From Paludibacteraceae bacterium (GTDB lineage: Bacteria; Bacteroidota; Bacteroidia; Bacteroidales; Paludibacteraceae), in NCBI GenBank assembly GCA_024401515.1, contig JAKSKY010000006.1, forward strand, positions 1-46,837: a stretch of 46,837 nucleotides of DNA, in the 5' to 3' direction. Shown here in pieces: positions 38,471-43,856 of this stretch. The notes under the pieces are model-generated. The model was not told the origin of the DNA. It saw nothing but the letters and a program-made list of their open reading frames with translations, and did no database searches. The position numbers were made by a program, and so were the translations under genes. Within the stretch, counting starts at the first letter, position 1. Each line of letters begins with the position of its first letter.

Positions 38471-40282
38471 TTATTGGGCGATAATCGTCATTTCGCAATC
38501 TTTGCAGTTAAAGTTTAGCGTGTACGCCTTCCCGTTGTTGGCGATTAAGGTAAGGGGCTCCTTGATTTCGTTGGCTGCTTTGTCTTGCTTCTTGCAGTAT
38601 CCTAGTGTGTGGCGAATACAATGTTTACAGGTCATGACAGGTACTCCGCTTTGAGGTTCCTTCTCAAAGGACGGTGCGATGTGCTCCACTTGGTGTTGTG
38701 TGTAGAACTCTTTGGCCTTTTTATTGTGGACATTACCCCTGTAATCCAATTCGTGGGTGATGTATGGATGAGATGTTTTTGGGAAGACAAATTCAGACTT
38801 TCTCCGTTGTTTGGCTCTCTCCGCTTCCAATGCTTCCAATAAGTCACGACGCCATTGTGTGATGATGCCCGCCGGAATAAAGAAGATGTCGCTTTTAATC
38901 TCCACTTCATCCACCCGAAAGATGGTGTTGCCACTCTTTTGGAAGATGGAAACGATATTCTCCCTTTGGCGGTCAGGATTTTTACAAGCCTCTTTCTCGT
39001 TAGGAATTGTAATGGTTGAGGTGATGTTATCCTCGTCGATGGCAGTAGCGGACAATCCCTCTGCGTCCTCTGTGAGTATGATCTTGGCGTTAATCTTTCG
39101 TTCTGCGGACTCTTTGGACAATGTCTTTTCAAAGGCTTGGTCCATATTGCGGTAGAGCAAAGTGTTGCTTGGCATGTTGATTCGTTCCGCGGGGGTGATG
39201 ATGTTGCCTTCCACTGTGTTCGCCCTGAATCCGTGGAACTCGCCGTTCTGGTCTATGTAACAGAAACCATCTCCGTTGGACATGGTTTTCTCCGTTTGGA
39301 CGATGATTTTACCATTACGGCTATAGGCGTTGCCCATCTTTTCTCCAGTTGATTTCGGAGTCTCCATTTGGATGATGTCACGTCTTCTTCCGTGAAGGAA
39401 ATAGTCGATGGACCCTCGGTGGAAACTCTTTTCCGTATCAGGCGTGAAGGTGTAGGTGCAGTGGCCGGAACTGGCTTGCGTATAAATCTTGCCGTCTAGG
39501 ATTTGGTCCAATGCTTGACGGTAGGATGCGGTGACATTCTTCACGTAGGATAAATCCTTCAACCGTCCCTCGATTTTCAAGGAGGAGACACCTGCGTCGA
39601 TCAACTCTTTCAAATGGGCGGAGAGGTTGAAATCTTTTAGGGAGAGTAGATATTTGTCTTGTGCTAAGATTTTTCCTGTTGCGTCTTTTAACGAATAGGG
39701 GAGTCTGCAGAATTGCGCGCAGTTTCCTCGGTTGGCGCTTCGTCCGCAACCATTCTGACTCATATAGCATACGCCACTGTAACTGACGCAGAGGGCGCCG
39801 TGGACGAATGCTTCCAATTGAACGTGGGTGGATTGCGCGATGTTTCTTATTTGTTCGATGGATAATTCCCTGGCCAAAACCACCTGCTCGAATCCGGCCT
39901 TCTCCAAAAACTGTACCTTTTCGGGGGTGCGGTTGTCCATTTGGGTGCTGGCGTGTAATGGGATGGGCGGAATATCCAATTGGGTAATGCCGAAGTCCTG
40001 CACGATGAGCGCGTCGGCGCCAATGTTGTAGAGCTGATGGATGATGCGTTCCGCCTGTGTTAGCTCCTCGTCCGTAAGGATGGTGTTGAGGGCGACGTAA
40101 ACCTTCGCGTAGTATTTGTGCGCGTATTGGATCAGTCGTTCAATCTCTTCGATTGTATTGCCAGCTGCCGCTCTTGCGCTGAATTGGGGAGCACCGATGT
40201 AGACGGCATCTGCACCGTGGTTGATGGCCTCGATGCCGATATCCGCATTTTTGGCGGGTGCGAGCAATTCAATCTTCCGCAT
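38471..40282 (-). CDS. U32-family peptidase-like protein, probable rRNA hydroxylase RlhA type
   Basis: 603 residues. An N-terminal U32 TIM-barrel ([20 protein letters not shown] and GADAVYIGAPQFSARA) is followed by the conserved cysteine cluster C165, C172, C179, C188 and C192 (ALCVSYSGVCYMSQNGCGR...NCAQFC), which in this family holds an Fe-S cluster. A DUF3656-like domain follows, and a second cysteine-rich end (TCKHCIRHTLGYC and NCKDCEM) closes the protein. U32 proteins act in prephenate-dependent RNA hydroxylation, and RlhA (23S rRNA C2501) shares this layout; TrhP-type tRNA hydroxylation is the alternative. Its ATG overlaps the metA stop by one base (TAATG), so the two genes are translationally coupled. 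Confidence 0.88.
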   Translation of the reverse strand: MRKIELLAPAKNADIGIEAINHGADAVYIGAPQFSARAAAGNTIEEIERLIQYAHKYYAKVYVALNTILTDEELTQAERIIHQLYNIGADALIVQDFGITQLDIPPIPLHASTQMDNRTPEKVQFLEKAGFEQVVLARELSIEQIRNIAQSTHVQLEAFVHGALCVSYSGVCYMSQNGCGRSANRGNCAQFCRLPYSLKDATGKILAQDKYLLSLKDFNLSAHLKELIDAGVSSLKIEGRLKDLSYVKNVTASYRQALDQILDGKIYTQASSGHCTYTFTPDTEKSFHRGSIDYFLHGRRRDIIQMETPKSTGEKMGNAYSRNGKIIVQTEKTMSNGDGFCYIDQNGEFHGFRANTVEGNIITPAERINMPSNTLLYRNMDQAFEKTLSKESAERKINAKIILTEDAEGLSATAIDEDNITSTITIPNEKEACKNPDRQRENIVSIFQKSGNTIFRVDEVEIKSDIFFIPAGIITQWRRDLLEALEAERAKQRRKSEFVFPKTSHPYITHELDYRGNVHNKKAKEFYTQHQVEHIAPSFEKEPQSGVPVMTCKHCIRHTLGYCKKQDKAANEIKEPLTLIANNGKAYTLNFNCKDCEMTIIAQ

Positions 40283-41199
40283 TATCGAATGTGGCTGATG
40301 TTATAAGGCGTCTTTTGGTAGACGAAGTAATTCAACCAATTGGTAAATAGTAAGTTACCATGGCTTCTCCAACGAACGACAGGTTTTTTCTTCGGATCGT
40401 CATCCTCGAAATAGTTGCATGGGATTTGGATCTCCAATCCCTTCTCCTTATCTCTGAAATACTCGTCTTTCAAGGTGTTAGGTGCATATTCGGAGTGTCC
40501 TGTGATGAAAAACTCACGGCCGTTTCTGCCTTGTACGATGTAAACGCCCGCCTCATCAGATTCGGAGATGATTTTCAATCCTGGAATCTTTTCGATATCC
40601 GCTCTTCTCACCTCTGTGTGGCGACTGTGTGGCGCATAGAAGATGTCGTCAAATCCTCTGAAAATAGGATTCTTAGAGTCCAACACTTTGTGTTTGAACA
40701 CACCAAACTTCTTTTGGCTTAGCGGGTATTTAGGCACGCCATAATAGTGGTATAGTCCCGCCTGGGCTGCCCAACAGATGTAGAGGGTGGAGGTGACGTG
40801 TGTCTTGGCCCAATCGAAAATCTCCACGATTTCGTTCCAGTAGGTAACCTCTTCGAATTCGTAGTTCTCGATGGGTGCGCCTGTGATGATCATACCGTCA
40901 TATCTTTGCTTTTTGATGGTGTCGAAATCTTTGTAAAAGGTCATCATGTGCTCCATGGGCGTGTTCTTAGAGGTGTGGCTTTTGATTTTCAAAAGGTCCA
41001 ACTCTATTTGCAACGGTGTGTTGGAAAGCAGTCTGATAAGGTCCGTTTCCGTCGTGATTTTCAACGGCATCAAATTCAGTACGATGATTTTGAGCGGGCG
41101 GATATCTTGATTAGCGGCGGATTCGGAATCCTTTACGAAGATGTTCTCCTTCTTCAACGCATCGACTGCTGGTAAGTTTGATGGTATGTTTAGTGGCAT
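40282..41199 (-). CDS. metA: Homoserine O-acetyltransferase (MetA family)
   Basis: 305 residues, all MetA motifs present. The catalytic C142 lies in [10 protein letters not shown]235 and E237 in TGHSEYAP, and the residue at position 111 is Glu ([10 protein letters not shown]). In this family Glu111 is associated with acetyl-CoA use, while Gly at this position marks the succinyl-CoA enzymes, so acetylation of homoserine is predicted. This fits the O-acetylhomoserine sulfhydrylase at 10782-12074. The start has a strong Shine-Dalgarno (AGGAGGA at 41204-41210). The stop overlaps the start of the U32 gene by one base. Confidence 0.95.
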
Positions 41200-41252: not shown

Positions 41253-41260
41253 TACTTTTG
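41253..41260 (+). promoter_or_regulatory. -7 box TACTTTTG of the radical SAM/lipoprotein pair
   Basis: TAnnTTTG match facing away from the metA promoter, about 57 bases before ATG 41318. Confidence 0.6.
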
Positions 41261-41317: not shown

Positions 41318-41755
41318 ATGAAAATCAGAAAATTTGTTCAGTTGATTTTGAGTGCCATATTAGGTTTGATGGGCTGTTCGGAGTGTGCTGTTGAAGAGTA
41401 TGGCTGTCCTTCCGCCGACTTTGAGATGAAGGGAAAGGTGGTCAATGAGAAGGGTGAGGCTATGCCTGATGTAGATGTAAGTAATTCCTATCCACAAAGT
41501 GATACTTCCCGAATTTATAGACCTGTCGCCACTACGAATGAGTCAGGCGAATATGTCGTTCAGGACGATTTATATAATTTGTGGGAGCAAGCCGAAGGCT
41601 ATTCTTTCCGTTTTGTGGGGGATACGACGAAATACGAACCTTTCGACACGATTATTCCGCGCTCAAGTCTGAACTTCAAAGGCGGAGATGGTGATTGGTA
41701 TCAAGGAAAGGCTTCGGTTGTCGTAAATGTTACTTTGAAAGAAAAGACAAAATAG
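41318..41755 (+). CDS. Lipoprotein partner of the radical SAM/SPASM enzyme
   Basis: 145 residues. The lipobox LGLMGC places the lipidated cysteine at residue 20; two more cysteines follow at 23 and 30 in SECAVEEYGCPSADF, and the rest of the protein has none. Residues about 33-110 form a carboxypeptidase-regulatory-like strand set (FEMKGKVVNEKGEAMPDVDVS). The layout (lipobox, short Cys-rich YGxPxADF-type segment, then a beta domain) matches what I recall as the lipoprotein of the rSAM/lipoprotein system in Bacteroidota. ATG 41318 is preferred over GTG 41291. The enzyme gene begins one base after the stop. Confidence 0.85.
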   Translation: MKIRKFVQLILSAILGLMGCSECAVEEYGCPSADFEMKGKVVNEKGEAMPDVDVSNSYPQSDTSRIYRPVATTNESGEYVVQDDLYNLWEQAEGYSFRFVGDTTKYEPFDTIIPRSSLNFKGGDGDWYQGKASVVVNVTLKEKTK

Positions 41756-41756
41756 G

Positions 41757-42848
41757 ATGAAACAAAACCCAGAGAAAATATCCTTCAAGAAGAAGGTGGC
41801 GATGTCCTTATTTGACCGTTATCGCCACAATGCGGCTAAAATCCACGATTTGACCTATCTCTTTTGGGAGACCACATTGCGTTGCCCTCTCAATTGTCAG
41901 CATTGCGGAAGTGATTGTCGTGCGGACTCTTCCGTGAAGGATATGCCAGTGGCTGATTTCGTGAATGCGGTGAAACAAATCGTTCCGATTGTGGATCCAC
42001 ACCATACGATGATCGTTTTTACAGGTGGAGAATCTTTGGTTCGCCATGATTTGGAAGAGGCTGGTCAGGCGATGTATGACATGGGCTTCCCTTGGGGAAT
42101 TGTGACCAATGGTTTCTTGCTGACTCCACAACGCCTTCAATCATTGCTCAATGCGGGTATGCGATCCTGCACGGTGAGTCTGGATGGATTGGAGGAGTCC
42201 CATAATTGGTTGAGAGGACATTCGGACTCTTTCCGTAGGGCAGTGGCGGCGATCAAATTATTGCCCGCGACAGACTTGCGTTTTGATGTTTGTACCTGTG
42301 TGAACAATAGGAATTTTGAGGAACTCTCTCAAATTAAGGAGTTGTTGATTGATTGTGGTGTGAAGGAGTGGCGCCTTTTTACGATATTCCCTATCGGAAG
42401 AGCTGCTAACAATCCAGAGCTACAATTGTCTGATGAACGCTTCAAGGCGGTCTTCGATTTTATTGCGGAGACTCGTAAGGAGGGAAGAATCAAGGTCTCT
42501 TATGGTTGTGAAGGCTTTTTGGGCGATTATGAGATGGAAGTGCGGGATAATTTCTTCTTCTGCCGAGCTGGAATCAATGTGGGTTCCGTTTTGGTGGATG
42601 GAAGCATTTCCGCTTGTCCCGATTTGCGTGGTAGATTTATCCAGGGCAATATTTACAAGGATAATTTGGCGGATGTTTGGCAAAACCGTTACCAAATCAT
42701 GCGTGACCGTAAATGGACCAAGACGGGTATTTGCAAGGATTGCGACTTCTTCAACCATTGTGAGGGCAATGGACTCCATTTGCGTGATGAGGCAACCAAT
42801 GAATTGGCCTTCTGTCATTTGAAGCGCATCATGGGAGGGGTAAAATAA
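41757..42848 (+). CDS. Radical SAM/SPASM enzyme of the rSAM/lipoprotein pair
   Basis: 363 residues. The radical SAM cluster motif is C43-x3-C47-x2-C50 (CPLNCQHC), with a further C54. VFTGGESLVRHDL is the GGE-type SAM-binding strand. The C-terminal SPASM domain carries C269, C287, C326, C329, C335 and C353, enough for two extra Fe-S clusters. SPASM enzymes modify peptides or proteins; the lipoprotein next door, with its three clustered cysteines, is the obvious candidate substrate but this is inference. I recall the family name as a radical SAM enzyme of an rSAM/lipoprotein system; its reaction is not known to me. Confidence 0.9.
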   Translation: MKQNPEKISFKKKVAMSLFDRYRHNAAKIHDLTYLFWETTLRCPLNCQHCGSDCRADSSVKDMPVADFVNAVKQIVPIVDPHHTMIVFTGGESLVRHDLEEAGQAMYDMGFPWGIVTNGFLLTPQRLQSLLNAGMRSCTVSLDGLEESHNWLRGHSDSFRRAVAAIKLLPATDLRFDVCTCVNNRNFEELSQIKELLIDCGVKEWRLFTIFPIGRAANNPELQLSDERFKAVFDFIAETRKEGRIKVSYGCEGFLGDYEMEVRDNFFFCRAGINVGSVLVDGSISACPDLRGRFIQGNIYKDNLADVWQNRYQIMRDRKWTKTGICKDCDFFNHCEGNGLHLRDEATNELAFCHLKRIMGGVK

Positions 42849-42902: not shown

Positions 42903-43856
42903 GTGAAACATATATCCCTTTTGCTGTTTTTGTTATGTTCCATCAGTCTGTTTGCCACAGAAGCCACGGATGTTTCAATGATGGAGCTTAATGGACCTGT
43001 GAAGTCATATTTCAAAGATGGGGAAAAATTCTATTTCGACAAGTCAGGTAATTTGACACATGCAAAGGTTCGTGCAAAACATGATGTGATTGTTCATTGG
43101 GATGAATACTACAAACATTCTTTTGATAAAAAGGGGAGACGAGTGAAGTCAAAAGTTTACAAAGATTCAACATTCAAAGAGCTTCTATATTCCATCAAAT
43201 ACAAATACGATAAAAAGGGTGTTTTGATTGAGAAAGTCACGAGTCAAGGTGTGTCAACCAGTTATAACGCCATTTCCAAGTGGGAAGAAGTTTTATCCAA
43301 ATATGGCAATAAAAAGCACCAACCAAATTCAGAGGAAAAGCGAACGGACAAACAGGTGTATGACAACAAAAAGTTCCATCTCGTCGTATATGATACCACT
43401 TATTGCTTTTATGATGAAAAAGGCGATTTGACATTCTATATAGAACGCGGAACATGGAATGAGACATCGAATTCCCGCAGTTATTGTCGTAAAGTCTCTT
43501 CCTGCGGAGACACTTTAATGACAAGATCCATATCGACAAAAGCTAATGACACAGCAGATTACTGTACATTAACAATTGTCCAAAACTTTCGGAAAATAGA
43601 AGAGAAGGTGTTTAGATACGGATCTTCTGATTCTATAGATTATATTGATAAATTCAAATACAATGATCATGGTCTTCTTGCAGAAAAATATATGTACAGA
43701 AAAAACTATGATGATTACTTCCCGTGGACCATTCACAACATTGATTGCACAATCACATACCAATATGATCAATTGAACAATCTAGTGGGAGAGGAATGGT
43801 TGTATAACGACAAAAAGAAAACCGAGACAAAAAAATACGAGATTGAGTATTATTGA
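42903..43856 (+). CDS. Exported YD/RHS-like repeat protein, unknown
   Basis: 317 residues with a signal peptide (1-19, ending SLFA). The body has loosely repeated strands of the form Y-x-[FY]-D-x2-G-[NR]-[LR] (KFYFDKSGNL, KHSFDKKGRR, KYKYDKKGVL, TYCFYDEKGDL, KFKYNDHGLL, TYQYDQLNNL), as in YD/RHS-type or toxin-immunity-like surface proteins. It has no C-terminal toxin domain and no sorting signal. Translation likely starts at GTG 42903. Compared with its neighbours it is rich in Lys/Tyr and A/T. It is downstream of the radical SAM gene but separated by a repeat. Confidence 0.7.
   Translation: MKHISLLLFLLCSISLFATEATDVSMMELNGPVKSYFKDGEKFYFDKSGNLTHAKVRAKHDVIVHWDEYYKHSFDKKGRRVKSKVYKDSTFKELLYSIKYKYDKKGVLIEKVTSQGVSTSYNAISKWEEVLSKYGNKKHQPNSEEKRTDKQVYDNKKFHLVVYDTTYCFYDEKGDLTFYIERGTWNETSNSRSYCRKVSSCGDTLMTRSISTKANDTADYCTLTIVQNFRKIEEKVFRYGSSDSIDYIDKFKYNDHGLLAEKYMYRKNYDDYFPWTIHNIDCTITYQYDQLNNLVGEEWLYNDKKKTETKKYEIEYY

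Follow-up and report, generated by a model that had tools for sequence, protein, structure and literature searches.

What might a radical SAM/SPASM enzyme do to a lipoprotein whose gene lies directly in front of its own? This question was raised by two genes in a 46,837-nucleotide stretch of DNA from a Paludibacteraceae bacterium (hereafter, the window). The first gene (41318..41755, + strand) encodes a lipoprotein of 145 aa, the proposed substrate, and the second (41757..42848, +) encodes an enzyme of 363 aa. The ATG of the enzyme gene, at 41757, follows the stop codon of the lipoprotein gene after a gap of a single base, as a preliminary description of the locus had stated.

The gene pair and its distribution

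Comparison with NCBIfam indicated that the window lipoprotein is a member of TIGR04134 (lipo_with_rSAM; 77.3 bits against a cut-off of 39.8), which was its sole match at E-values up to 0.01. The enzyme is a member of TIGR04133 (rSAM_w_lipo; 563.9 bits against a cut-off of 425) and had Pfam matches to Radical_SAM and SPASM. These scores bear out the earlier suggestion that the pair is a named but uncharacterised radical SAM/lipoprotein system; both families are graded 'hypoth_equivalog' in NCBIfam. The family names give neither function nor motif, and the YGxP target and the link to spliceases are added here. Pfam also gave a weak CarboxypepD_reg-like match to residues 37–82 of the lipoprotein (41426..41563, +; 17.8 bits, below the cut-off of 32.3).

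The metA gene (40282–41199) is upstream of the pair and divergent from it. The preliminary description had given the pair a dedicated promoter, which was not borne out: a scan of the + strand upstream of the lipoprotein gene found no sigma-70-like site. One TAnnTTTG (41253..41260, +) is a weak candidate for a -7 promoter element of the Bacteroidetes type. Such sites numbered 45 in the window against 34 expected, a count reached in 2 of 100 shuffles. A promoter of the pair's own is plausible only because metA runs the opposite way. Just 3' of the enzyme gene (42903–43856) the window encodes a protein of 317 aa that begins like a signal peptide and weakly matches a YD repeat; it was not among the commonest neighbours at other loci.

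TIGR04133 was identified in 97 of 393 genomes from the window's order at E ≤ 1e-60 and in 87 over the cut-off, with 65 of 207 genera represented. The corresponding figures for TIGR04134 in the same 393 genomes were 124 (E ≤ 1e-3) and 58 (over the cut-off), and in 395 genomes of the class they were 9 (E ≤ 1e-5) and 4. Stretches were fetched around all 118 enzyme places in the order sample (114 stretches and the window), and around 26 places that have a lipoprotein but no listed enzyme nearby, including the second copy in the window's own genome; two of the latter (L202 and L203) hold an enzyme fragment. A further 41 named loci were added by enzyme similarity. The resulting set comprised 160 enzyme ORF matches, 155 of them distinct, counting fragments and three distant homologues. 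The pair also occurs on NZ_OY725757.1 of Parabacteroides distasonis. Records outside the Bacteroidota came from Treponema saccharophilum, where the two genes are annotated as a pair of this kind, and from Spirochaetales, Treponema and Hydrogenedentota MAGs, for which binning errors are possible.

There was no conserved third gene at these loci: the commonest other neighbour family, among ORFs of at least 100 aa, occurred in 7 of them, and widespread clusters of small ORFs with offsets inside the enzyme gene were overlapping frames. The recurrence of the pair in genomes of the window's order and in the Spirochaetota and Hydrogenedentota records, with no other neighbour conserved, leaves next to no probability that the two genes are together by chance or are merely operonic neighbours. 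An upstream candidate bearing the motif or the profile was lacking for 17 of the 155 enzymes. Five of these had a candidate downstream instead (L108, L118, L128, L161 and L163), one an adjacent ORF with AYGTFP (L127), two started at a contig edge (L173 and L219) and three were the distant homologues, at 175–185 bits (L177–L179); no candidate partner was seen at the locus of the other six (L107, L112, L131, L138, L162 and L235).

Lipoproteins were also found apart from an enzyme. At 16 enzyme-less places in enzyme-bearing genomes (lipoproteins with a profile score of at least 60 bits), 15 keep YG and one (L186) does not. Four more are in genomes in which no enzyme was found; L189 and L201, both of genome G227, keep YG, and L183 (G306) and L184 (G369, a genome 75% complete) do not. 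The second TIGR04134 match of the window's own genome (L005/L180, G000:C18:142-459; 63.9 bits) lies at the edge of a contig, and no enzyme was seen there; its 252-aa protein has EYGCPYATF, no lipobox Cys was seen in it, and its C-terminal tail resembles a type IX secretion tag. In a phage collection, neither the window enzyme (E up to 1e-15) nor the TIGR04103 enzyme of Nostoc (E up to 1e-20) had a match.

Conserved residues of the lipoproteins and enzymes

The translation confirmed that the only cysteines of the window lipoprotein are residues 20, 23 and 30. The preliminary description had taken C23 and C30 to be the target, linked by the enzyme through a thioether or other cysteine-based bond. 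The presence of both residues in the window protein and the known formation of thioethers by SPASM enzymes speak for this idea. The alignment program also scored the C23 column as nearly invariant, but this is an artefact that arose only because the aligner set the lipobox Cys of other proteins against C23. The relatives of the pair argued strongly against such a link. The nearest named relatives are Paludibacteraceae MAGs, and at locus L206, the closest relative, whose enzyme is 92% identical to that of the window, the lipoprotein (GCSEITADEYGCPTADF) keeps C20 and has Ile in place of C23 (41384..41386, +). Of the 121 YG-bearing lipoproteins next to related enzymes, 69 have just one Cys. The residue that follows the G, and precedes the P where there is one, corresponds to C30 (41405..41407, +); in these 121 it is Thr (60), Ser (14), Val (12), Cys (8) or another residue. 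Conserved Cys donors besides the lipidated one, as expected for substrates of the thioether-forming SPASM maturases of sacti- and ranthipeptides, were not found. With homologues lacking C23 and C30 beside intact enzymes, a C23–C30 bond is refuted as a family-wide mechanism, and we regard the link as very improbable. The retention of C20 without C23 in L206, together with the lipobox LMGC that ends the signal peptide (41318..41377, +), indicates that Cys20 is likely the lipidated residue.

The conserved element of the partner lipoproteins is Tyr-Gly-x-Pro rather than the cysteines. In the window protein the proposed modification site is E27-Y28-G29-C30-P31 (41396..41410, +), in which Cys30 is the variable x. 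To count the motif in ORFs not selected for it, the longest same-strand ORF ending near each enzyme start was taken whatever its sequence; 152 of the 155 distinct enzymes could be tested in this way (three are at contig edges), with no such ORF present for 5 of the 152. YGxP was present in 120 of the 152 and YG in 135, the latter count including chance matches in unrelated ORFs (e.g., L108). GY was present in 30, FGxP in 2 and the reversed P.GY in none. The background of 3379 ORFs of 60–250 aa at all loci, lipoproteins included, had YGxP in 206, P.GY in 40, YG in 655 and GY in 522. Several of the unselected ORFs without YGxP had YG but no Pro, or had CYA, and others were wrong-frame or unrelated ORFs.

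A profile built from the adjacent proteins identified 123 nearest lipoproteins, a set whose counts are biased towards the motif because the profile was seeded with motif-bearing proteins. YG was found in 121 of them and YGxP in 113 (in L242 only through a C-terminal YGEP), and the Tyr is kept in the remaining two also, as both have CYA. The residue before the Tyr in the 121 proteins is Cys (40), Glu (38), Met (16), Lys (9), Val (7), Ala (5), Leu (5) or Ile (1). The Tyr is directly after a lipobox-like Cys in 37 of them, and in proteins without a lipobox Cys the motif occurs as AQYG just after the signal peptide. Invariance of a longer segment, YGxPxADF, had been suggested as a check of the enzyme–substrate relationship; YGxP was kept, but the A, D and F were retained in only 51, 55 and 42 of the 123. 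When 29 lipoproteins were aligned (that of the window plus 28 from the 43 stretches at named loci, with short lipopeptides and some others omitted), only Y28, G29, P31 and G77 were invariant. This result depends on the choice of sequences, as among the 15 omitted L210:2593-3033 has no YG and the Pro is missing from that position in L242 and L245.

The motif was also present in very short proteins. Sixteen adjacent YG-bearing lipopeptides are only 51–89 aa long, and 13 of these have a single Cys. At six loci (L126, L123, L124, L228, L231 and L232) lipopeptide precursors of 51–64 aa beside the enzyme have a mature part of 22–45 residues and one or more YGxP motifs. Two or three YGxP occur in 14 of the 123 lipoproteins, and a second YGxP after the first was expected in 1.2 proteins when the rest of the sequence was shuffled. 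The charged lipoproteins of L095 and L102 each have three YGxP motifs, two in the form VYGSPE and one as LYGVP. A further 40 lipoproteins came from tandem arrays at 31 loci, of which 39 have YG and 34 YGxP; the member without YG is L210:2593-3033. The class of substrate (CYG at the lipobox or not) tracked the enzyme tree, with 8 changes against 31 in shuffles.

Residue counts for the enzymes were taken from 149 of the 155 that were full-length and high-scoring. The CxxxCxxC motif and six SPASM-region cysteines of the preliminary description were present in the window enzyme as C43, C47 and C50 and as C269, C287, C326, C329, C335 and C353 (42561..42815, +; Pfam and alignment). All nine are invariant in the 149 enzymes, as is a fourth Cys, C54, that extends the radical SAM cluster motif to CxxxCxxCxxxC (41883..41918, +). 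The usual SPASM motif is CxxCx5Cx3C, and the place of its last Cys (Gly339 in the window enzyme) is Gly in 125 of the 149, with Ser, Ala or Pro in the rest. Two residues further on, His341 (42777..42779, +) is kept in 147 of the 149, with Cys in the other two; that this His is a cluster ligand is a guess.

Relationship to TIGR04103 and the PlpXY splicease

The window enzyme scored 140.3 bits against TIGR04103, which we take to be the same family as IPR026482, and did not reach its cut-off of 725. As it also scored 138 bits for TIGR04053 and 131 for AhbD, the NCBIfam ranking alone was discarded as evidence for a splicease, and trees were built because this ranking does not separate the three. 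In plasmid records (60 of 150 matches listed) the top match beyond the TIGR04133-like H1–H3 was an Agathobacter radical SAM enzyme (155 bits), and the next among the matches listed was the 'nif11-class peptide radical SAM maturase 3' of Nostoc sp. C057 (132 bits, 27% identity). The Nostoc enzyme is a TIGR04103 member (853 bits), and the Nif11 precursor adjoining it ends in GRGSIALYGLPPELF (ALYGLPPELF).

The first tree contained 22 diverse TIGR04133 rows and 30 others, and the second, from which five long or odd rows were removed, had 47 rows; a single TIGR04103 row was over the cut-off. In the first tree TIGR04133 formed one group (100/100) that was not nested in TIGR04103. It joined 12 rows at 100/98, namely TIGR04103, TIGR03913-like enzymes, the Agathobacter enzyme, L247–L251 and L256, and the same branch was recovered in the second tree at 100/98 and in all 200 bootstrap trees. 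AhbD/NirJ2-like enzymes, TIGR04053, MftC, PqqE and some unlabelled rows fell outside in both trees, these outgroups being few (18 and 13 rows) with none identified as a sactipeptide maturase. TIGR04133 and TIGR04103 are thus in one clade, apart from these other SPASM families, the order within which was weak (89/66, first tree) or unresolved (second tree). In the joint alignment for the second tree S52 and W205 were present in 34 of 34 clade rows against 3 of 13 outside, and G253 in 20 of 22 TIGR04133 rows and 12 of 12 other clade rows against 4 of 13 outside. Members of one clade need not share a chemistry, and 140 bits against TIGR04103 and 27% identity to its Nostoc member call for caution.

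Other members of the clade had varied neighbours. An unannotated small ORF (L258, 3713–3919) directly upstream of the Agathobacter rectalis radical SAM gene ends in GPVMYGTGVRM and is a candidate splicease precursor. No convincing YG partner was seen beside the radical SAM genes of L247–L251 and L256; in L249, L251 and L256 these are preceded by a similar small ORF (~99 aa or longer) with SVVMYLVI and no YG. TIGR03913 (GDL-motif maturases with DUF1843 peptides) has partners that are small proteins without a signal peptide, unlike the TIGR04134 lipoproteins. Eight DUF1843 peptides near three related radical SAM enzymes (L259, L262 and L279) had an N-terminal LYG or PYG in four cases and Y-A or Y-M in the other four. 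A structure paper of 2024 still regards DUF1843 as having no known function (PMC10994174).

The splicease PlpXY is described as excising tyramine from the backbone at XYG, leaving an alpha-ketoamide (PMC10533398), with MYG and LYG as natural sites (PMC10533398, PMC11002830). PlpX, of IPR026482, is described in the latter as needing an RRE partner, PlpY, and protease inhibition is cited there. Like the window pair, PlpX/PlpY combines a radical SAM/SPASM enzyme with an X-Tyr-Gly substrate motif, and PlpXY tags with LYGLP fit xYGxP. The tags tested include GPIRPLYGLPI and GPIRPGYGLPI. According to the table of tags in PMC10533398, the majority, including those with LYGLP, were unmodified at the sites in FtsZ where they were tried; modification was recorded for two longer GYGLP constructs. 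Another tag there is GYGVVFP, and on these entries YGxP is neither a sufficient nor a necessary feature for PlpXY. The two systems differ in their substrates, which are signal-peptide-bearing lipoproteins for the window type and peptides with Nif11 or nitrile-hydratase leaders for PlpX. The window lipoprotein has a signal peptide in place of such a leader. In addition, TIGR04133 differs from PlpX in lacking the last canonical SPASM Cys and in its nearly invariant His341. The 71-aa protein that follows the Nostoc enzyme, assumed to be PlpY-like solely from its position, was used as a phmmer query (E up to 1) against ORFs of 35–110 aa on the enzyme's strand, and no PlpY-like protein was found.

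Proposed reaction and its meaning

Together, the X-Tyr-Gly motif, present in 135 of the 152 unselected adjacent ORFs, and the clade shared with TIGR04103 suggest that the TIGR04133 enzyme is a tyrosine-editing enzyme, probably a lipoprotein splicease. The best explanation, to which we give about even weight, is that it edits the Tyr of X-Tyr-Gly-x-Pro in its partner lipoprotein or lipoproteins before export. That the enzyme acts on the YGxP motif is very likely; given this, we lean slightly towards tyramine excision as the chemistry over another modification of the Tyr. The prelipoprotein would encounter the enzyme while still in the cytoplasm, ahead of lipidation and export by Sec; this part of the preliminary description, action on the N-terminal segment before export, stands as the likeliest reading, although without the cysteines as target. 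Radical chemistry would begin at the Tyr of XYG and tyramine would leave the backbone, with a predicted mass change of -135.07 Da per edited YG motif. In the window protein X would be Glu27, seven residues past the likely lipidated Cys20, and in CYG proteins the lipidated Cys would itself be the prospective beta-residue. The product would then be exported, lipidated and displayed as an electrophile anchored in the membrane, which might inhibit or trap cell-envelope proteases covalently. An envelope-anchored trap would fit the inhibitory activity of ketoamide products (reviewed in PMC10373908), but we consider protease inhibition a rather doubtful function for this product.

A different reaction at the same Tyr, such as a cross-link to a neighbour, an oxidative decarboxylation-type reaction, hydroxylation or epimerisation, is a real but lesser possibility. 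No other residue of the mature protein is as well conserved as the Tyr, yet its conservation is silent on the chemistry, and the GDL-type peptides of this clade retain the Y even when they lack the G. MftC, whose target Val-Tyr is C-terminal, resembles the role proposed for TIGR04133 in acting on a peptide Tyr; unlike TIGR04103 and TIGR04133, it is outside the clade. Radical SAM/SPASM enzymes carry out several types of Tyr modification, the mycofactocin enzyme MftC being an example (PMC8326336). Against these reactions, however, the Gly that follows the Tyr in 121 of 123 lipoproteins matches the XYG rule, and the xYGxP string recurs in the precursor adjoining the TIGR04103 enzyme and in PlpXY tags, the published reaction of PlpXY being tyramine excision. 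We find it unlikely that YGxP is instead a structural or export element and that the enzyme has another site or another substrate. Many lipoproteins do have a similar domain directly after the motif, and some orphan lipoproteins keep the motif without an adjacent enzyme. But the motif is also kept in 16 lipopeptides that, judged by length, are too short for the domain, is duplicated, occurs at the C-terminus as well, and matches the core of the Nif11 precursor of a related enzyme.

A broader form of the splicease reading is that TIGR04133 represents a large protein-splicease branch on exported lipoproteins, in which tyramine would be cut out next to, or (in CYG proteins) at, the lipid-anchored N-terminus and a ketoamide displayed, with neither PlpY nor a leader. 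We hold this tentatively, at slightly under even weight. Many Bacteroidales would then show alpha-ketoamides, some on lipidated peptides of ~22–46 residues.

None of the papers searched gave the TIGR04133 or TIGR04134 accession, and papers combining lipoproteins and radical SAM enzymes, judged by titles among those listed, included none on this pair. A 2022 splicease survey may already cover part of this system; what is new here is at best the YGxP target and the connection to spliceases, which may be partly known, the pair itself already having been named.

If the proposal is correct, the residue acted on, the mass to be expected and a candidate reaction would be at hand for a hypothetical NCBIfam pair, in a family that is over its cut-off in 87 of the 393 genomes sampled from the window's order. 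Backbone splicing would extend beyond leader-peptide RiPPs to envelope lipoproteins of gut and environmental bacteria, and a reactive ketoamide would sit at the membrane. On this reading, envelope proteins of these bacteria may be fitted with a reactive chemical group.
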